From Gimibacter soli (GTDB taxonomy: Bacteria; Pseudomonadota; Alphaproteobacteria; Sphingomonadales; Kordiimonadaceae): a stretch of DNA of 64,000 nt. Position numbers and translations under genes: made by a program. The DNA lies in NCBI RefSeq assembly GCF_028463845.1, contig NZ_CP116805.1:2046001-2110000 (forward strand), written 5' to 3'. Shown here one piece after another: positions 40,852 to 50,236 of this stretch. How positions within the stretch are numbered: position 1 is the stretch's first letter; each line of letters begins with the position of its first letter. Below the pieces are notes generated by a model, which searched no databases, had not been told where the DNA came from, and saw only the letters and a program-made list of their open reading frames with translations.

Positions 40852-42191
40852 CACGTACTTCGAGCCTCCTTGGCCGCATCATCATGGTCGCGGCCGCCGC
40901 TTCGCTCGTTGCGGCCTGCTCGGGCGGTGGCAACAAGAAGCCCAAGAACAAGTATGACGACGAAGGCAGGGAGCGCGTATCCGTCCTGAGCTCGACCCAG
41001 CTTCTGGACGCAGACGAGGCGCTCTCCGGCATCACCGTGACGCTGCCGCGTGCCTACCGCAACCTCAACTGGGCGCAGCCCGGCGGGAACGAAGCGCATC
41101 TGCCCCAGCACCTGGAAGTCGGCGAAACGCTTTCGCGGGCCTGGACCCGTTCGATCGGCCGCGGCAACCAGGATTACGAGCGCATGGTCTCGTCGCCGGT
41201 TGCGGCCGAGGGTAAAGTCTTTGCCGTCGATTCCCGTGGCAACGTGGCCGCGGTTTCGCTCTCCGACGGTTCGCCGCTCTGGACCGCTGAAATCCGCAGC
41301 GAAGAGCGCAGCGATGTCGGCTTCGGCGGCGGCGTTACTTATGCGGGTGGCGTTGTCTATGCGACGTCCGGCTATGGTTTCGTAGTAGCCCTTGATCCGA
41401 ACACAGGCGCGGAGCGCTGGCGGTATGACGCGGGCGTGCCTTTCCGCGGTGCACCGAGCGTAACGGCTGGCCGCGTGATCGCGGTCACCCACGATAATCG
41501 CATCGTAGCCCTGAATATCGACAATGGCACCCTTGTCTGGGATCAGGTCGGTATCGCTGAAAGCGCCGGTATGCTGGGTGCTGCAACGCCGGCCTCTGAC
41601 GGACAAACCGTTGTGGCGGCGCTGTCGTCGGGCGAATTGATGGCCATGCGCGCCGGTAACGGCCGTATCGTGTGGCAGGATGCCCTGACGGCCTCGCAGC
41701 GTCTCACCCCGCTTGCAACGCTTGCTGACGTTGACGCCCATCCGGTGATCGACCGCGGCAAGGTCTATGCTGTCAGCCACGCCGGTACGATGGTTGCTAT
41801 CGACATGCGGTCGGGCGAGCGGTCGTGGGAAACCGACATTGCTTCGGTTTCCATGCCGTGGATTGCGGGTAACTTCGCTTTCATCACCACCATCGATGGG
41901 CAAGTGGCCTGTATCGCCCTCGGCGATGGCCGCGTGCGCTGGGTGGCGCAGCTGCAGCGCTTCACCAATCAGGAAAAGCGCAAGGGCCTGATCCACTGGA
42001 ATGGCCCGGTGCTGGCGGGTGACCGCCTGCTTGTGGCCTCGAGCCACGGCTATCTTGTAAGCGTTTCGCCCTATTCCGGCGACGTGCTGAGTGCCACCGA
42101 ACTGCCGGCTGGCGTCACCACCGATGCAATCGTGGTGGATGGCACCTATATTGTGATTACCAATGACGGAAAGCTGGTAGCCTACCGCTGA
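40848..42191 (+). CDS. bamB: Outer-membrane assembly lipoprotein BamB
   Basis: 447 residues. The lipobox LVAAC puts the acylated Cys at residue 24. The rest is a PQQ-like eight-bladed propeller with repeats such as VFAVDSRGNVAAVS, GFVVALDPNTGAERWRYDAG and LVAYR at the end. BamB is a periplasmic scaffold of the BAM complex that folds barrels such as LptD (encoded at 13125-15290). It is 35 bases before der. Confidence 0.94.
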   Translation: MTRTSSLLGRIIMVAAAASLVAACSGGGNKKPKNKYDDEGRERVSVLSSTQLLDADEALSGITVTLPRAYRNLNWAQPGGNEAHLPQHLEVGETLSRAWTRSIGRGNQDYERMVSSPVAAEGKVFAVDSRGNVAAVSLSDGSPLWTAEIRSEERSDVGFGGGVTYAGGVVYATSGYGFVVALDPNTGAERWRYDAGVPFRGAPSVTAGRVIAVTHDNRIVALNIDNGTLVWDQVGIAESAGMLGAATPASDGQTVVAALSSGELMAMRAGNGRIVWQDALTASQRLTPLATLADVDAHPVIDRGKVYAVSHAGTMVAIDMRSGERSWETDIASVSMPWIAGNFAFITTIDGQVACIALGDGRVRWVAQLQRFTNQEKRKGLIHWNGPVLAGDRLLVASSHGYLVSVSPYSGDVLSATELPAGVTTDAIVVDGTYIVITNDGKLVAYR

Positions 42192-42226
42192 GAGGCGGTG
42201 GCCCCGGCCATCCTGGATAGAAATAG

Positions 42227-43681
42227 ATGACCTTTACCCTTGCCATTGTGGGCCGCCCCAATGTCGGCAAATCGACGCTTTTCAACCGTCTGGCTGGAAA
42301 GCGTCTTGCCATTGTAGATGACACGCCGGGCGTGACGCGCGACCGCCGGATGGCGGAAGGCCGCATTGCCGACCTCGAGTTTCGCCTGATCGATACGGCG
42401 GGCCTTGAAGAAGGCGATCCGGGCTCGCTTTCCGACCGGATGCGCAAGCAGACCGAAGCCGCGATCGAGGAAGCCGACGTGGCGATCCTTCTGTATGACG
42501 CCCGCGTTGGCCTGACCACGATGGACGAGCATTTCGCCAAGCTGCTGCGCCGCTCAAAAACGCCGATCATCCTTGCCGCCAACAAGTGCGAGGGAAAATT
42601 CATCCAGCAGGGCATCTATGAAGCCTATGCGCTCGGTATGGGTGACCCTATCGCGCTGTCGGCCGAGCACGGCGAAGGCCTCGGCGACCTTTATCAGGCG
42701 CTTGTCGAGACGCTGCAGGAAATCGGCATCGATCCGCATGCCGAGGAAGAGATCGACGAAGAAGCCGAGCGTCGCGCGCGGGAAGCCAATACTGGCCCCG
42801 AAGAAGGCGACCTGAATTACGAGTTCGAGGACCCCGAAGACGAGGACGAGGAAGTAAAGCCCTTGCGCCTTGCCATCGTCGGGCGCCCGAACGCCGGCAA
42901 ATCGACGCTCATCAATGAACTGATCGGCGAAGACCGTATGATCACAGGGCCGGAGGCTGGCCTCACCCGCGATTCTATCGGCGTCGATTGGGAATGGGAC
43001 GGGCTTCCCGTTCGCATTTACGATACGGCGGGCCTGCGCAAGCAAGCCAGAATCAGCGAAAAGCTCGAGAAACTGTCGGTCGCCGATACGATGCGCGCCA
43101 TCCAGTTTGCCGAAGTTGTTGTGTTGCTGCTCGATGCCGAGCTTGGCGTTGAAAAGCAGGACCTGAAAATCGCCGAACGCGTGGTCGAGGAAGGCCGTGC
43201 GCTTCTGATCGTGCTCAACAAATGGGATGCGGTCGAGAACCGGCTGGAAGTGCAGCGTGCCTTCGAGGATGCGCTGACCCGCAGCCTGCCGCAGATCAAG
43301 GGCGTGAAAACGGTGACCCTGTCGGCGCTGACCGGCAAGGGCCTGCAACGCCTGATGCCGGCGGTTGAGGAAGTCTATGAAATCTGGAACGCCCGTGTGC
43401 CTACGGCGGCGTTCAACCGCTGGCTCCATGAGAAGCTCGAAAAGCACCCGGCACCTTCGGTGAATGGTCGTCGCATCAAGATGCGGTACGGTGCCCAGAT
43501 CAAGACCCGTCCGCCGACCTTCGCGATCTTCTGCAACCTGCCGGACGATGTGCCGGACAGCTATGTCCGTTATCTTGAGAACGAGCTGCGCCGCGACTTT
43601 GACCTGCCGGGCGTTCCGCTTCGTTTCATCATGAAGGGCAGCGCGAACCCCTACGAAGGCCGTCGCCGCAAGAACAAGTAA
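42227..43681 (+). CDS. der: GTPase Der (EngA)
   Basis: 484 residues. Der has two tandem G domains and acts in 50S maturation. G1 motifs are GRPNVGKST (residues 9-17) and GRPNAGKST (about 218-226), with DTAGLEEGD and DTAGLRKQA as G3 and NKWDA as the second G4 motif. The C-terminal KH-like domain ends in GVPLRFIMKGSANPYEGRR. An acidic stretch (EFEDPEDEDEEVK) links the G domains. The GGATAG site before the ATG suggests it is translated off the bamB transcript. Confidence 0.97.
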   Translation: MTFTLAIVGRPNVGKSTLFNRLAGKRLAIVDDTPGVTRDRRMAEGRIADLEFRLIDTAGLEEGDPGSLSDRMRKQTEAAIEEADVAILLYDARVGLTTMDEHFAKLLRRSKTPIILAANKCEGKFIQQGIYEAYALGMGDPIALSAEHGEGLGDLYQALVETLQEIGIDPHAEEEIDEEAERRAREANTGPEEGDLNYEFEDPEDEDEEVKPLRLAIVGRPNAGKSTLINELIGEDRMITGPEAGLTRDSIGVDWEWDGLPVRIYDTAGLRKQARISEKLEKLSVADTMRAIQFAEVVVLLLDAELGVEKQDLKIAERVVEEGRALLIVLNKWDAVENRLEVQRAFEDALTRSLPQIKGVKTVTLSALTGKGLQRLMPAVEEVYEIWNARVPTAAFNRWLHEKLEKHPAPSVNGRRIKMRYGAQIKTRPPTFAIFCNLPDDVPDSYVRYLENELRRDFDLPGVPLRFIMKGSANPYEGRRRKNK

Positions 43682-43691
43682 GCCCCGTGAA

Positions 43692-43719
43692 TTGACGCGG
43701 CTGCGGGTTCGCCTATAGT
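43692..43719 (+). promoter_or_regulatory. Promoter placed for leaderless transcription of the ABC importer operon
   Basis: TTGACG (43692-43697), a 16-base spacer and TATAGT (43714-43719). The ATG of the next gene is at 43726, six bases after the -10, so transcription would begin at or within one or two bases of the start codon. No Shine-Dalgarno sequence is present. Confidence 0.65.
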
Positions 43720-43725
43720 GGCGGC

Positions 43726-44682
43726 ATGAAAGCCCTTGTTGCAGCACTGATATTCAGCTTCTTCACCTTGCCGGCGCTGGCCGGTGAGGCGCGCACCGCC
43801 ATCACCTTCGCGACCGACTGGAAAGCGCAGGCCGAACATGGCGGCTTCTATCAGGCGTTGGCCCAAGGCTATTACCGCGACGCAGGCCTTGATGTGACGA
43901 TCCGTCCCGGCGGGCCGCAGGTTGACCTGCCACGGCTGATGGCGGCTGGTGCCCTTGATGTCGTGATGGCGTCGAATGGCTTCCAGCCTTATAACCTCGC
44001 TGCGGCAGGCGTACCTGTGAAGGTACTGATGGCAGCCTTCCAGAAGGACCCGCAGGTGCTGATGGTGCACCCTGATGTAGCCGCCGCCGAGATCGCTGAC
44101 CTTAAAGGGCGGCCCATCTTCATTTCAGATAGCGCGATTTCCACCTTCTGGCCGTGGCTGAAGGCCCGCTTTGCGTTCGAGGACCGGCAGATCCGCAAAT
44201 ATGGTTATTCGCTCGGCCCGTGGCTCGCCAATCCGGGCAGTGTGCAGGAAGGCTATCTGTCGTCCGAGCCCTATAGCGCCACGATTGCGGGGATCGAGCC
44301 GAAAGTCTTCCTGTTCGCCGATGCCGGTTATCCGGGCTATGCCGCCATGGTTATGGTGCGGGACGACTATTTGAAAGGCAATGAAGCCGCCATGCGCGCC
44401 TTCGTGCAGGCCAGCATCCGCGGATGGCAGGACTATATCCACGGCGACCCGGCAGCGGGCAACGCGCTGATCCTGAAGGATAACCGCGAAATGACGCCCG
44501 AACTGCTAACCTACGCCGGAAAAGCCATGCGCGAGCGCGGCATCGTGGGCGAGGGTGATATGGTCGGTACCATGACAGCCGAGCGCTGGGTGCAGTTCTA
44601 CAGCGAAATGAGCGAGCTTGGCATTCTGCCGCAAGGGTTGGACCCTGCCAGCGTCTACCGGCTGGATTTCGCCCGGCCATGA
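43726..44682 (+). CDS. ABC transporter substrate-binding protein (NMT1/THI5-like)
   Basis: 318 residues with a signal peptide (MKALVAALIFSFFTLPALA). The NMT1/THI5 fold is evident in ITFATDWKAQAEHGGFYQALAQ, YYRDAGLDVTIRPGG, DVVMASNGFQ and YLSSEPYSATIAG. ThiY-type members bind pyrimidine precursors of thiamine; others bind taurine, nitrate or riboflavin-related compounds. The substrate is open, and I see no TPP riboswitch in the 44 bases upstream. Its stop overlaps the ATPase ATG by four bases. Confidence 0.88.
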   Translation: MKALVAALIFSFFTLPALAGEARTAITFATDWKAQAEHGGFYQALAQGYYRDAGLDVTIRPGGPQVDLPRLMAAGALDVVMASNGFQPYNLAAAGVPVKVLMAAFQKDPQVLMVHPDVAAAEIADLKGRPIFISDSAISTFWPWLKARFAFEDRQIRKYGYSLGPWLANPGSVQEGYLSSEPYSATIAGIEPKVFLFADAGYPGYAAMVMVRDDYLKGNEAAMRAFVQASIRGWQDYIHGDPAAGNALILKDNREMTPELLTYAGKAMRERGIVGEGDMVGTMTAERWVQFYSEMSELGILPQGLDPASVYRLDFARP

Positions 44683-45395
44683 TCAGGGTCGATAATGTCC
44701 GCTTCGGGTACGGGAATGCGGCGCTGGTGCTGGACGGGGTAAGCCTGAGTGTAGCGCCGGGTGAGATGGTCGCGCTGGTCGGGCCTTCCGGATGCGGTAA
44801 ATCCACACTGTTGCGGCTGGTCGCCGGGTTGGAGGTGCCGTCTGCGGGCAGCGTTACGCGAGGCGAAGGCGCTGAAACCGGCTTCGTGTTCCAGTCTCCA
44901 GCCCTGCTGCCCTGGAAAAAGGTTCGGGCGAATGTCGCGCTGCCGCTGGAACTGGCGGGCAAGCCAGATACGGCTGCTGTGCAGGCCTGCCTCGACGCGG
45001 CTGGCATCGGTGATCTTGGTGACCGCTATCCGGCAAGCCTGTCGGGCGGGCAGGCGATGCGGGTTTCCATTGCGCGTGCTTTGGTCACTGCACCAGACAT
45101 CCTTCTGTTTGACGAACCCTTCGCAGCACTGGATGAGATAATTCGTTTTCATCTCAATGACCTGATTCTGGGTCTTAAAGTATCGCGCAAATTCGCGAGC
45201 CTCTTTGTCACCCACAGCCTGTATGAAGCCGCCTATCTCGCTGACCGCATTCTTGTGATGGGGAAAGGGCGGTTTCTGGGGCAGGTGGTGCCGGGGATCG
45301 ATCCGGCCCTAGGCCCCAAGGATCGTCGGGCGGCGCCCGAGCTTGCTGCCGCCGTCAGCGCCATGCAGGGCTGGCTTGAGGAGGCGGTGGCATGA
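44679..45395 (+). CDS. ABC transporter ATP-binding protein
   Basis: 238 residues. Walker A GPSGCGKST (about 35-43), Q-loop VFQSPALLPW, signature LSGGQAMRVSIARAL, Walker B ILLFDEPFAALDE and the switch His in VTHSLYEAAYLADR are all intact. The SsuB/TauB/ThiZ-like form fits the neighbouring NMT1-type binding protein. It overlaps both neighbours by four bases (ATGA), so the three genes form a tightly coupled operon. Confidence 0.93.
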   Translation: MIRVDNVRFGYGNAALVLDGVSLSVAPGEMVALVGPSGCGKSTLLRLVAGLEVPSAGSVTRGEGAETGFVFQSPALLPWKKVRANVALPLELAGKPDTAAVQACLDAAGIGDLGDRYPASLSGGQAMRVSIARALVTAPDILLFDEPFAALDEIIRFHLNDLILGLKVSRKFASLFVTHSLYEAAYLADRILVMGKGRFLGQVVPGIDPALGPKDRRAAPELAAAVSAMQGWLEEAVA

Positions 45396-46168
45396 AGCTG
45401 CGCATCCTTGCCCCCGTCCTTTCGCTCATCATCGCCATCATCGCATGGGAAGCGGGCGTCGCGCTGACCGGTGTTTCCAAATTCATCCTGCCGCCGCCAT
45501 CGGCGATTGGCGCTGAACTTATCGGCAGTATTCCCGAATTCGCGACGTCTGCTGCCTTCACGCTGAAAATCACCCTTCTGGCGCTTGCTGCCGCCCTTGT
45601 GACCGGGCTGGTGCTGGCTTTTCTGTTCTCGCTATCCGGCTTTATCGAGGCAGCCCTCAGCCCGATTGCCGTCATCCTGCAGGTGACGCCTATTGTGGCG
45701 GTGGCACCCCTTATCCTGATTTGGGTCGGGATTGATCACGTTGAGCGCGCACTGGTCATCATCGCGTGGCTTGCGGCTTTCTTCCCGATCCTTGCGACAC
45801 TGACGAGCGGCCTGAAAGCCGTCGATCCGGCGCTTGCCGATCTGTTTCGGCTGTATAAGGCAACACCATGGCAGCGCTTCAGTCGGCTGGTGGTGCCGAC
45901 GGCACTGCCTTACTTGTTTGCCGGGCTTCGGGTCGGCAGCGGGCTCGCGCTGATCGGCGCTGTGGTGGCCGAATTTGTTGCGGGCTCGGGCGAGGCTGCG
46001 GGCCTTGCCTGGCGCATCCTTGAAGCTGGCAACCGGCTGCAGGTCGAACGGCTATTCGTCGGCCTTGTCTGGCTCATTGGCATGGGGGTCGCGCTTTACT
46101 ACAGCGTCGGGGCCGCCGAGCGATTCCTCATGAAGGCGCAGCGCGTCGACAAGGGTGCCCTGCATTGA
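45392..46168 (+). CDS. ABC transporter permease (BPD type)
   Basis: 258 residues, six membrane segments. The EAA loop facing the ATPase is around LADLFRLYKATPWQRFSRLVVPTALPYLFAG (spanning about 147-180). The last membrane segment (LFVGLVWLIGMGVALYYSV) and the following basic tail lie within the region that also encodes the end of the globin on the other strand: the two genes overlap by 117 bases tail to tail. Confidence 0.92.
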   Translation: MKLRILAPVLSLIIAIIAWEAGVALTGVSKFILPPPSAIGAELIGSIPEFATSAAFTLKITLLALAAALVTGLVLAFLFSLSGFIEAALSPIAVILQVTPIVAVAPLILIWVGIDHVERALVIIAWLAAFFPILATLTSGLKAVDPALADLFRLYKATPWQRFSRLVVPTALPYLFAGLRVGSGLALIGAVVAEFVAGSGEAAGLAWRILEAGNRLQVERLFVGLVWLIGMGVALYYSVGAAERFLMKAQRVDKGALH

Positions 46169-46546
46169 CCTGATCTTGCGGTTCCCGAGGATTGCGTCTT
46201 CAAGATTCCAGGCCAGCATCATGATTTCAGCGACCAATGCAGGCGTGTGGCCGCATTCCCTGAGCGCAGCTTCAAGGTTCGTCATCGTATGGCTGAAATG
46301 GTCGTGATTGAGGCCGTGGTCCCGCACCAGATGTGCGTGCGATTCCTGCAGATAGAAGGCGACACCGGTGGTTTGGCCACAGAACAGCATGGTCAACAGG
46401 CTGCGCTGCATCTGCTGGATGCGGGGTAGTTTGGCGTTGGAAAAGAAGGGCCGGGTGACCGGATCTTCCAGTTGTTTGCGGTAGAAAAGATCAATGATCT
46501 TGTCGAGCGACTCCTGGTCCCCCAACCGGTCAAGAATGGTCAGCAT
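46052..46546 (-). CDS. Truncated haemoglobin-like protein with a C-terminal extension
   Basis: 164 residues. The first 120 resemble group 1 truncated globins: IIDLFYRKQLEDP gives the B10 Tyr22, TRPFF follows, and SHAHLVRDHGLNHDHF aligns with the proximal-His region, making His70 the likely haem ligand. The rest (127-164) is a hydrophilic tail that lies wholly antisense to the permease gene. Such globins bind O2 or NO, but the role here is unknown. It is divergent from haem A synthase. Confidence 0.8.
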   Translation of the reverse strand: MLTILDRLGDQESLDKIIDLFYRKQLEDPVTRPFFSNAKLPRIQQMQRSLLTMLFCGQTTGVAFYLQESHAHLVRDHGLNHDHFSHTMTNLEAALRECGHTPALVAEIMMLAWNLEDAILGNRKIRSMQGTLVDALRLHEESLGGPDAVVKRDPHANEPDKADE

Positions 46547-46607
46547 AAGCTTTCCCCATATACCCTATCTTCCCATAAGGCGCTGGAATTATGGGTGCCT
46601 CCGTTGG

Positions 46608-46635
46608 TTGTGTCAAATAAAACGCTCGCTAAAAT
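46608..46635 (+). promoter_or_regulatory. Weak candidate promoter for ctaA
   Basis: TTGTGT (46608-46613), 16 bases and TAAAAT (46630-46635) lie 72 bases before the ctaA ATG in the globin-ctaA gap. The -10 is good and the -35 poor. Confidence 0.35.
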
Positions 46636-46707
46636 TGTATTCAAATTCGACCCGAGGGGTGGTCGATTGCGCTTGCCCGCCGTGTGAATTGCCGGTAGCA
46701 AACCAAC

Positions 46708-47745
46708 ATGAACCAAAGTGCTGCTGATAAGAATTCCCGTGCCGTCGGCTATTGGCTGATGGCCGTTGCCGCTATCGTTTTCATCATGGTTGTGGTGGGC
46801 GGGATCACGCGCCTCACCGAATCCGGCCTTTCCATCGTGCGGTGGGAGCCCGTGACCGGCGCCTTGCCGCCGCTGACGGATGAGGCGTGGAAAGCCGAGT
46901 TCCAGATGTATCAGGAAAGCCCTGAATACAAGCTGAAGAATGCCGGCATGAGCCTTGAGGATTTCAAGGACATCTATTTCTGGGAATGGCTGCACCGGAA
47001 CATCGGCCGTTTCATCGGCCTTGCCTATTTCCTGCCGCTTGTCTGGTTCTGGGGACGGGGGCATATCCCCGAAGGATTGAAACCCCGGCTGGTCGTGCTG
47101 TTCCTTCTGGGCGGCGCACAGGGGGCGATGGGCTGGTACATGGTAATGTCGGGCCTTGTAGACGAGCCATCGGTCAGCCACTACCGGCTGACAGCGCACC
47201 TGAGCCTTGCCCTGCTGCTGTTTGCGCTTTTGTTCTGGACCGGCCTTTCGCTGCTGCGGCCGCGCCGGCAGGAAGCGCCAAAGGGGTTGAAGATACTTAC
47301 CCATATCAGCATGACCATACTGGTGCTGCAGATCGTCATGGGGGCGCTCGTTGCCGGGCTGAAGGCAGGCTATATCTTCAATACATGGCCGCTGATGGGT
47401 GACAGTTTCGTGCCGAGCGTGCTTCTGGATATGGAGCCCGTGTGGCGCAATTTCCTTGATAACGCCGTAACCGTGCAGTTCGATCACCGGATTGGCGCCT
47501 ATATACTGGCAGCACTTGCACTGGTCATCGGTGTGCGGGCGTGGGCGCAGGGCGGGCTTGTCCGTCAGGCGGGCGCCTTTGTGCTACTCACCGTTTTCGC
47601 CCAGATTGTGCTGGGCATTGTGATGCTGCTTGCCGAGGTGCCGGTTCACCTTGGTGCGGCGCACCAGGGCGGCGGGGTTGTTGTACTCGCCGCGTTTCTC
47701 AATCTGATGCATGTGATGCGAAAGGGGGCAGGGGATGCAGGATGA
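46708..47745 (+). CDS. ctaA: Haem A synthase (CtaA/COX15)
   Basis: 345 residues, eight membrane segments. CtaA oxidises the haem O methyl group to a formyl, giving haem A for aa3-type oxidases. Conserved His sites are seen in WEWLHRNIGRFIG, YRLTAHLSLAL, VQFDHRIGAYIL and HLGAAHQGGG; GGITRLTESGLSIVRWEPVTG is the family N-terminal signature. The ribosome-binding site is weak. It overlaps cutA by 11 bases. ctaB and the oxidase genes are not nearby. Confidence 0.95.
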   Translation: MNQSAADKNSRAVGYWLMAVAAIVFIMVVVGGITRLTESGLSIVRWEPVTGALPPLTDEAWKAEFQMYQESPEYKLKNAGMSLEDFKDIYFWEWLHRNIGRFIGLAYFLPLVWFWGRGHIPEGLKPRLVVLFLLGGAQGAMGWYMVMSGLVDEPSVSHYRLTAHLSLALLLFALLFWTGLSLLRPRRQEAPKGLKILTHISMTILVLQIVMGALVAGLKAGYIFNTWPLMGDSFVPSVLLDMEPVWRNFLDNAVTVQFDHRIGAYILAALALVIGVRAWAQGGLVRQAGAFVLLTVFAQIVLGIVMLLAEVPVHLGAAHQGGGVVVLAAFLNLMHVMRKGAGDAG

Positions 47746-48076
47746 GGATATCGTCCAGATCTATATGACAACCGATAGCGAGGATGTGGCGATCCATATC
47801 GCCACCACGCTCGTGAATGAACGCCTGATCGCCTGCGCCAATCTTACGAGCGGTACGCGGTCGATCTATCGCTGGGACGGCGCCATCCGGCTCGACCGCG
47901 AAATTACCATCATCATGAAGACGGTCAAATCCAGCGCCGAGGCGGCAGTCGCCCGCGCCAACGAGCTGCATACCTACGAAGTCCCCTGCATCGTCACCCT
48001 TGATGTAACGGGCGGCCATGCCGAGTATCTGAAGTGGGTGCGTGAGCAGACGGTGCCGGTGGCGGTTGGCTCCTGA
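47735..48076 (+). CDS. cutA: Divalent-cation tolerance protein CutA
   Basis: 113 residues, the usual length. CutA1 forms very stable PII-like trimers in the cytoplasm; a role in copper or other metal tolerance has been proposed but is not settled. Seen: VNERLIACANLTSGTRSIYRW, REITIIMKTVKSS and HTYEVPCIVTLDV, which are family hallmarks. It starts inside the end of ctaA. Confidence 0.93.
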   Translation: MQDEDIVQIYMTTDSEDVAIHIATTLVNERLIACANLTSGTRSIYRWDGAIRLDREITIIMKTVKSSAEAAVARANELHTYEVPCIVTLDVTGGHAEYLKWVREQTVPVAVGS

Positions 48077-48083
48077 CGACCGG

Positions 48084-49223
48084 TCAGGGCAGCCACAGAT
48101 TATAGATCGCGCCGGTGTCTGCACCGGCTGATCCTGTGTGCAGGGCGCCATCCGTGACGATCAGTGCGTGGCCGTCGCCTTTCAGCTCCCAGATATTGCC
48201 CTTCAGGAACACATTCATCCCCCAGCGGATATTGTGGGCGGTCGCTTGCGCGGGCAGGGCATATTTCTGCCATGCTTCGCCTTCGCTGATACGGCCAACA
48301 TCGGCGCGCCATGCGTCGCTTTCCGGCGTGTCATTCACATAGCCACCCCAGGGCGCGTCCCACGGGCCGGTAAGGAACGAGGGGACGAGCAGCAGGTCAG
48401 CACCCTGATCGGCGACGGCCTTGGTGGCATCCTCGAACCAGCTGTCGGCGCAGACAAGCACACCGACGGTGCGGCCCGCCGCCTTGAATACGGGTAGGAG
48501 GTCCGGTCGTCCCTTGGCGGTAAAGCCGACTTCGCTCGGGATCGGGTGGATCTTGCGCACGGCGTCTTCCATCGGCTTGCCATCGGGGCCGAACATGAAG
48601 GACGCGTTGTAAAGCGGTCCGTGGCCATAGGAGAGGGCGTCGTCGTCATAGATGCCGGCAGTCATCAGGAGCGTGGAGCCGGCGACGATATGAACGCCGT
48701 AATCACGCGCCAGCCGCCCGAAGATTTCGCCTGTCATGGCGGCCACATCCCCGGCACGGCTGCGGAATACGGCTGCAGCGGCGCGGTCGGCATCATGGAA
48801 AAGATAATAGTTTTTCAGGAAGGATGGCAGGTTCCAGGCAATGATCGGGACCATCGCACTGGCGGTGGAGCCTGCCTTGAGCACCCGTGGCTTCTGATCC
48901 GCCGCGATAAGCCATGTGCCGATATGTTCGGGGAAAAGCACGATCGTATTGGCGCCAAGCCAGCCACGCGACCGGGCCGCGTCCAGATAGCCGCGAAGCT
49001 TGGCTTCAAACCGTTCGGGTGTGGCGTAATCGAGCGTTTCCATGAAGGGCTCGATACCGACCACATTGCCAGTGGCGCCTGCTTCCGGGCCATAGCTTTC
49101 CGCGACAGAGAGATGCAGTTCGGGTGGTGTGTCGAGGTCGAGCGGCAGCCCCGGCCAGTAAAGGAAGGCAAGGACTGCCGCAATCAGGAAGGCGGCAGAA
49201 AGAAGGAGCCGCCGCAAGATCAT
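48084..49223 (-). CDS. Membrane-anchored carbon-nitrogen hydrolase (nitrilase superfamily)
   Basis: 379 residues. An N-terminal membrane segment (residues 4-22) places the enzyme domain in the periplasm. The Glu-Lys-Cys triad is Glu99 (VLFPEHIGTW), Lys224 (VRKIHPIPSE) and Cys258 (GVLVCADSWFED). Family enzymes cleave or transfer amide or nitrile groups. It is too short and has too few membrane segments to be Lnt, the apolipoprotein acyltransferase. It overlaps the reductase gene by four bases and lies downstream of it. The substrate is unknown. Confidence 0.85.
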   Translation of the reverse strand: MILRRLLLSAAFLIAAVLAFLYWPGLPLDLDTPPELHLSVAESYGPEAGATGNVVGIEPFMETLDYATPERFEAKLRGYLDAARSRGWLGANTIVLFPEHIGTWLIAADQKPRVLKAGSTASAMVPIIAWNLPSFLKNYYLFHDADRAAAAVFRSRAGDVAAMTGEIFGRLARDYGVHIVAGSTLLMTAGIYDDDALSYGHGPLYNASFMFGPDGKPMEDAVRKIHPIPSEVGFTAKGRPDLLPVFKAAGRTVGVLVCADSWFEDATKAVADQGADLLLVPSFLTGPWDAPWGGYVNDTPESDAWRADVGRISEGEAWQKYALPAQATAHNIRWGMNVFLKGNIWELKGDGHALIVTDGALHTGSAGADTGAIYNLWLP

Positions 49224-50236
49224 TCGTCAGCGACCTTGACGATCTGTTTGCCGAAATTCTTGCCTTTCAGCATGTCGATGAAGGCGGTCGGTGCATTCTC
49301 GAGGCCCTCGACCACGCTTTCGCGGTATTTAAGCTTGCCTTCCTGCAGCCACTTGGCGCCAACACCAATCCACTCGCGGCAGAGGTCAGGATAATTGACG
49401 ACAATGAAGCCTTGCATCTTGATGCTGCGGCCGACGAGCAGCACAAGGTTGCGCGGGCCAGCCGGCATTTCGTCGACCGTCAGGTTATAGTCGGCAATCA
49501 TGCCGCAAAGGGCGATGCGACCGTTGAAATTCATCATATTGATGACAGCTTCGAGCATCGGTCCGCCGACATTCTCGAAGTAGACATCGATGCCTTTCGG
49601 GTTGGCGGCCTTGACGGCGGCGAACAGGTTCTTTTCGGTCTTGTAGTTGAAGGCGGCGTCGAAGCCGAGCTCGTCCTTAAGATAGGCAACCTTCGCGTCG
49701 TCACCGGCGGAGCCTGCTACATGGCAGCCCATGTTCTTGGCGATCTGGCCGACGACCTGACCGACAGCACCGGAGGCCGCCGACACATAGACATTGTCGC
49801 CTTCCTTCATGTCTGCAATGCCCTTGAGGCCGACCCATGCGGTCATGCCCGGCATGCCGAGGATGCCGAGATAAAAGGAAAGGGGAGCAAGCTTCGGGTC
49901 AACCGGATTGAAGCCGGTGCCGTCGGTAACCTGATAGTTGGCCCACGCGCCCATACCGGTCAGGTACGTGCCCGCCGGGAACTTGCCGCCGTTCGATTCC
50001 TCGACACGCACAACGATGCCGCCAACGCAGGCTTCACCCAGTTTCCACGGGTCGGCATAGCTTTTGGCGTCATTCATGCGGCCGCGCATATAAGGGTCGA
50101 CCGACAGATACAGCGTTTTCACGAGCATCTGGCCCGGCCCGGGCGAGGGCATGTCTGCTTTCACATGCTCGAAATTGTCGGGCGTTACCCACCCGGTCGG
50201 GCGGCTTTTCAGGCGAATCTGATGGTTTGCCGTCAT
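49220..50236 (-). CDS. NADP-dependent oxidoreductase (CurA / PTGR-type MDR)
   Basis: 338 residues. A zinc-free medium-chain reductase: the N-terminal domain has RPTGWVTPDNFEHV and LYLSVDPYMRGRM; the nucleotide-binding region is VSAASGAVGQVVGQIAKNMG; DVYFENVGGPMLEAV follows. Relatives reduce the double bond of enones such as curcumin, prostaglandins or alkenals with NADPH. The 14-base palindrome 24 bases upstream suggests repressor control. The nitrilase-family gene follows, overlapping by four bases. Confidence 0.9.
   Translation of the reverse strand: MTANHQIRLKSRPTGWVTPDNFEHVKADMPSPGPGQMLVKTLYLSVDPYMRGRMNDAKSYADPWKLGEACVGGIVVRVEESNGGKFPAGTYLTGMGAWANYQVTDGTGFNPVDPKLAPLSFYLGILGMPGMTAWVGLKGIADMKEGDNVYVSAASGAVGQVVGQIAKNMGCHVAGSAGDDAKVAYLKDELGFDAAFNYKTEKNLFAAVKAANPKGIDVYFENVGGPMLEAVINMMNFNGRIALCGMIADYNLTVDEMPAGPRNLVLLVGRSIKMQGFIVVNYPDLCREWIGVGAKWLQEGKLKYRESVVEGLENAPTAFIDMLKGKNFGKQIVKVADE

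Follow-up and report, generated by a model that had tools for sequence, protein, structure and literature searches.

A 117-base convergent overlap between a truncated haemoglobin gene and an ABC transporter permease gene in Gimibacter soli

Convergent genes can come to overlap when one of them loses its stop codon. One survey describes stop-codon loss as a source of convergent overlaps, with lengths above 100 bases, and in the portion of it that we draw on gives the phase (123:321) a 33% share of those convergent overlaps that exceed 4 bases (PMC2174442). A second survey, in its treatment of convergent overlaps longer than 60 bases, regarded 54 of 178 as potentially genuine, most of these being shared only among very close species (PMC2478687), and the moving of stops is discussed as a route to convergent overlaps in a passage of a third paper (PMC4161906). 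The locus described here is like the long stop-mutation overlaps in the relevant parts of the first two surveys (PMC2174442, PMC2478687): it is convergent, in phase (123:321), with one gene longer at its 3' end than its orthologues, and confined to close species. It is unlike the overlaps in those same parts in that one and the same locus shows both a tail-less and a tail-bearing state, each of the two genes has a later end, and the tail is split into a conserved and a variable portion. The overlap is of an ordinary kind, probably a stop-loss convergent overlap, and an instructive example of it; having both states at one locus together with a split tail makes it a little uncommon.

Chlamydomonas THB11 is reportedly a group 1 truncated haemoglobin with a C-terminal extension. 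The protein studied here likewise joins a 2/2 globin core to extra C-terminal residues; unlike the extension of THB11, these residues are encoded antisense to another gene and occur in one genus only. A literature search for a truncated hemoglobin with an antisense overlapping gene gave none among the matches listed. The case is a clean worked example of how the opposite strand can supply a protein with a new C-terminal end. It illustrates why such extensions may often be harmless in GC-rich genomes, where the antisense frame in register holds few stops and turns a membrane helix into a hydrophilic chain. Our understanding of truncated haemoglobins or of ABC permeases is unchanged by the overlap.

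The overlapping genes

The window, the whole stretch of 64,000 nucleotides that was analysed, comes from a Gimibacter soli genome assembled as a single contig of 3.59 Mb. Its features at this locus are collected in Table 1. A preliminary description had proposed that the globin and permease genes share a 117-base convergent overlap, with the last 38 globin residues (127–164) read antisense to the permease end; the ORFs and their coordinates agree with both statements. The overlap takes in these residues and the stop on the globin side. Each permease triplet, when reverse-complemented, is a globin triplet, and permease position 3 lies opposite globin position 1 throughout. Homologues were found for both frames, each of which is a genuine gene.

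Table 1. Features of the globin–permease locus, in window coordinates
Feature	Position	Strand	Remarks
NMT1/THI5-like substrate-binding protein gene, same transporter	43726..44682	plus	profile match
ABC transporter ATPase gene, same transporter as permease	44679..45395	plus	profile match
ABC transporter permease gene	45392..46168	plus	ORF of 258 aa; stop TGA 46166-46168; Pfam BPD_transp_1 3.6e-21
Convergent overlap, codons in register	46052..46168	both	117 bases, both stops included; same in P. caeni
Group 1 truncated haemoglobin gene	46052..46546	minus	ORF of 164 aa; stop TAG 46052-46054
Distal globin tail	46055..46129	minus	residues 140-164; opposite permease's last hydrophobic stretch; hydrophilic; 12/25 residues differ between species; pLDDT about 40
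Proximal globin tail	46130..46168	minus	residues 127-139; opposite permease's last 12 codons and stop
Sigma-70-like promoter ahead of globin, TTGACA-17-CATAAT	46588..46616	minus	putative; 11/12 consensus matches, consensus match only; same in P. caeni
Haem A synthase gene ctaA (COX15)	46708..47745	plus	next gene on permease strand; profile match

By family profile and predicted 2/2 globin fold, the globin ORF is a group 1 truncated haemoglobin. It matched Pfam Bac_globin at 25.8 bits (cut-off 21), and in phmmer searches cyanoglobins and THB1 were its best solved relatives. Foldseek placed the structure model closest to the cyanoglobin 2hz2, with a TM-score of 0.84 by target length. The proximal histidine of the class was found at H70, which is invariant in a five-sequence alignment and pairs with the histidine of the cyanoglobin stretch 'EAHKELV'; we take this residue to be F8. 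The permease is a general member of the BPD_transp_1 family. It was not recognised as an SsuC/TauC/NtrB-type protein at NCBIfam equivalog level, its best match scoring 82.8 bits where the cut-off is 295.

The tail begins beyond the globin core. The Pfam match stops at residue 118, the alignment with the best solved relative reaches residue 122, and confidence in the model is below 50 from residue 124 onward, in keeping with the earlier proposal that the fold ends near residue 120.

A sequencing or assembly error that deleted the globin stop could also have produced such a long frame, an outcome that the preliminary description had named as one that would undo its proposal, and the discussion of long overlaps in annotated genomes in PMC2478687 judged most of them to be misannotations. 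Against this, the sister species Pseudokordiimonas caeni (LB-31), sequenced independently and the one further member of the genus among the genomes searched, has the same 117-base overlap in the same phase, and both of its proteins are equal in length to those of the window. The two species differ by 12% in DNA over 11.7 kb. Moreover, convergent gene ends are independent of start-codon calls. The shared overlap and protein lengths in P. caeni exclude a sequencing slip as the origin of the long globin, and we give practically no weight to an artefact.

Distribution and length of the tail

Tails were counted where a globin ran more than 9 residues past model position 123. Among 33 distinct globin ORFs from the order, two were found with a tail by this measure, both of them in this genus; the 33 are the loci of the order that were taken in, weaker globin matches having been left out. 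When the tail alone served as query, 2 of 96 relatives matched. The same query against 385 genomes of the class, a sample without P. caeni, gave a convincing match in the window's own genome alone (E 3e-25), the next match being at E 0.009. A scan of genome contigs returned three loci, none beyond those already found, and a plasmid search for the globin returned four records, which are distant group 1 globins, none with the tail. These counts support the view, put forward in the preliminary description, that the tail is overprinted coding; it would have been gained later, at the level of the genus. The tail-less state of 31 of the 33 globins, together with the tail-only searches of 96 relatives and 385 class genomes, rules out an old globin trait.

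In two other members of the family (G021 and G020) the globin gene has the same neighbours in convergent order, and the globins are tail-less and end at the permease end. The G021 globin, of 127 residues, overlaps the permease gene by the 4 bases CTAG, which hold the TAG of each strand; the G020 globin, of 123 residues, is separated from the permease gene by a 6-base gap. Relatives thus include both a barely overlapping and a non-overlapping orthologous pair, which is a mark of stop-loss overlaps. Whether the tail occurs only beside this neighbour had been proposed as a check, and the association holds in one direction: both carriers have the permease, and no tail occurs elsewhere among the 33 globins. 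It fails in the other: with these same neighbours, G021 and G020 lack the tail, and having the permease beside the globin is therefore insufficient for a tail. In a fifth related globin locus (G024) the gene sits between der and ctaA and the transporter is absent.

The permease of the two tail-bearing species also ends later, about 6 alignment columns past its orthologues in G021 and G020, so both gene ends have moved. The ancestral stop is placed from relatives that are only about 50% identical or less and that have diverged at the junction; both genes end later here, and the register differs from that of G021.

The length of the tail needs no special cause, because the register is kept open for at least 38 codons from the permease stop in 10 of 23 orthologous permeases. 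In nine neighbourhood genes, in-register antisense stops make up 0 to 1.2% of codons, and stops in the other two registers 1.3 to 6.6%. A tail of this size would be expected after loss of the globin stop in this register, and its length does not go beyond chance as judged from these frames. Setting the two tail-bearing species aside, the register is open equally long or longer in 8 of 21 tail-less orthologues, which rules out tail length as a sign of selection.

Conserved and variable parts of the tail

Constraint was gauged from one species pair, the window and P. caeni. They differ at 14 of the 39 overlap codons; 13 of these 14 differences change the globin and 7 change the permease. The differences in the globin are unevenly spread: none of the 12 residues at 127–138 differs, and 13 of the 26 at 139–164 do, against 6 of 126 in the core. 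Permease third positions opposite globin residues 127–139 (permease codons 247–259) are likewise unchanged at all 13 codons, compared with 96 of 220 changed elsewhere (Fisher P 0.0009). A version of the test that considered codon degeneracy gave P 0.0014 against the permease background and 0.003 against permease and ATPase together. The two proximal codons that changed both alter the permease; in the globin one is silent and the other exchanges His for Gln. In the distal part (permease codons 221–246) third positions changed at 9 of 26 codons, which is not a reduction (P 0.41), and each of the 12 changed codons alters the globin. On this comparison only residues 127–138 look constrained, and most of the tail (139–164) shows no such sign.

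Permease amino-acid changes were also more frequent within the overlap (46055–46168), at 7 of 39 codons compared with 9 of 220 outside (P 0.004). This excess could come from relaxed constraint at the permease C-terminus or from give-and-take between the frames.

It is very unlikely that selection maintains all 38 tail residues as a functional element, such as one for binding a partner or for oligomerisation. Tail length and stop codon are the same in both species, as are the last five residues (KADE at 161–164 and, in the proline region before it, residue 159), which would fit such a role. The divergence of residues 139–164 relative to the core speaks against it, as do the ordinary rate of change at the facing permease third positions, the altered globin at every changed distal codon, and the lack of the tail in all other globins examined.

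A less easily dismissed alternative, though still an unlikely one, is that no part of the tail is constrained and that the proximal stretch stayed unchanged by chance or because divergence is low locally. The evidence is a single pairwise comparison, in which the boundary at residue 138/139 was first seen in the data and the unchanged run was counted from the permease stop. The same two-species alignment holds 14 to 17 identical runs of at least 47 bases, most of them in other genes. Five of the nine genes, this pair left aside, also hold windows of 13 codons in which no third position changed: der (20 of 473 windows), the binding protein gene (20 of 307), ctaA (12 of 334), an alcohol-dehydrogenase-like gene (7 of 327) and a nitrilase-like gene (1 of 368), the last two names being judged from the ORF sequences. 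Weighing on the other side, the proximal stretch is the sole such window among 247 in the permease gene, and there is none among 227 in the ATPase gene; cutA also has none among 102. The run counted from the stop keeps its low P values with degeneracy considered, and the proximal changes fall on the permease, one of them sparing the globin altogether.

RNA structure was considered as a cause of the conserved proximal stretch. The overlap and its proximal half, each folded on both strands, did no better than shuffled sequences (z 0.43, 1.34, 1.30 and 1.04), which gives no hint of an RNA element there. A search of window positions 41500–50000 with Rfam at gathering scores found no riboswitch or other known RNA.

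We consider it likely that the tail arose by loss of a stop codon, followed by retention of a short C-terminal helix and toleration of a hydrophilic spacer. Originally the globin and permease genes would have met end to end, an arrangement still seen in two other genera or lineages of the family. Loss of the globin's ancestral stop would date to the ancestor shared by the two species known from the genus. Reading would then have run into the permease antisense, in a stop-poor register, and the new globin end would have come 38 codons on, at a permease CTA leucine codon, where an in-register antisense stop is met for the first time. The two frames pair at position 2, and hydrophobic permease codons are therefore read as hydrophilic ones: across the overlap the hydropathies of permease and antisense residues have a correlation of −0.84, with a mean of −0.87 for the antisense residues and +0.71 for the permease. 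The outcome would be a soluble, probably disordered and presumably harmless tail. Residues 127–138 would since have been retained, probably because they lengthen the final globin helix, and the remaining 26 residues would be a tolerated by-product shaped by the permease. The structure model has a helix at 123–142 and coil beyond, both at low confidence (below 50 for the helix), and this low-confidence prediction matches the order of a conserved and then a variable tail part. The tail is presumably translated.

A variant of this origin, to which we assign only a small probability, would have the two genes overprint each other in stages. Convergent stops lying in one tetranucleotide, CTAG as in G021, would have been lost together, each protein gaining a tail on the other; the proximal globin piece would have been kept as a new helix with the rest left free, and the antisense globin gene would tie its transcript to the ABC–ctaA operon.

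Gene order and a possible role as RNA

A permease orthologue followed by ctaA was found in 23 of 29 family genomes. The two genes are 38–82 bases apart at 17 of these 23 loci; four loci have an antisense globin gene between them, and two have another ORF. The spacer between permease and ctaA (window 46169–46707) is a slot whose gene content varies across the family through gain or loss. At one locus (G013, L079, positions 890–1483) it holds a convergent DUF6151 gene that overlaps the permease gene by the 4 bases TTAA, which include both stops, the same end-to-end arrangement as that of the globin in G021. At another (G026, L072, positions 1080–1460) it holds a 126-aa ORF on the permease strand with no Pfam match.

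The locus is like the noncontiguous operons or excludons set out in the part of PMC7154746 that we draw on, in that the globin gene runs counter to permease and ctaA, which share a strand; the ends converge, and nothing terminator-like lies between them. It is unlike the systems described in that part in that the globin is absent from the slot in most relatives. An antisense gene inside a same-strand gene run is what the globin represents, and by this arrangement a noncontiguous operon of the ABC genes and ctaA with an antisense globin gene is possible.

The overlap might then matter as RNA, either through a convergent duplex cut by RNase III or through an antisense globin transcript within a noncontiguous operon running from the ABC genes through ctaA and cutA. 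The close same-strand spacing of permease and ctaA at most of the 23 loci and the antisense globin in four would suit such a role. So would the window itself, where scans blind to Rho-dependent termination saw no terminator-like site between permease and ctaA, and there are precedents for the arrangement in the portion of PMC7154746 cited above. P. caeni has one weak terminator-like match, on the minus strand in the globin–ctaA spacer. Yet the tail-less relatives G021 and G020 keep the gene order although their genes do not overlap at length; the order therefore does not depend on a long overlap, and the shuffle-level folding on either strand also argues against a role as RNA. On balance we think it improbable that the overlap matters in this way. 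Regulation of both genes by a 117-base duplex, as first suggested, is not supported so far; the idea draws on the order of the genes and on there being no terminator-like sites between them.

The window's genome has a second, distant globin (G000:C1:751355-751699, E 3.8e-5) in a 151-aa open frame, and it has a counterpart in P. caeni.
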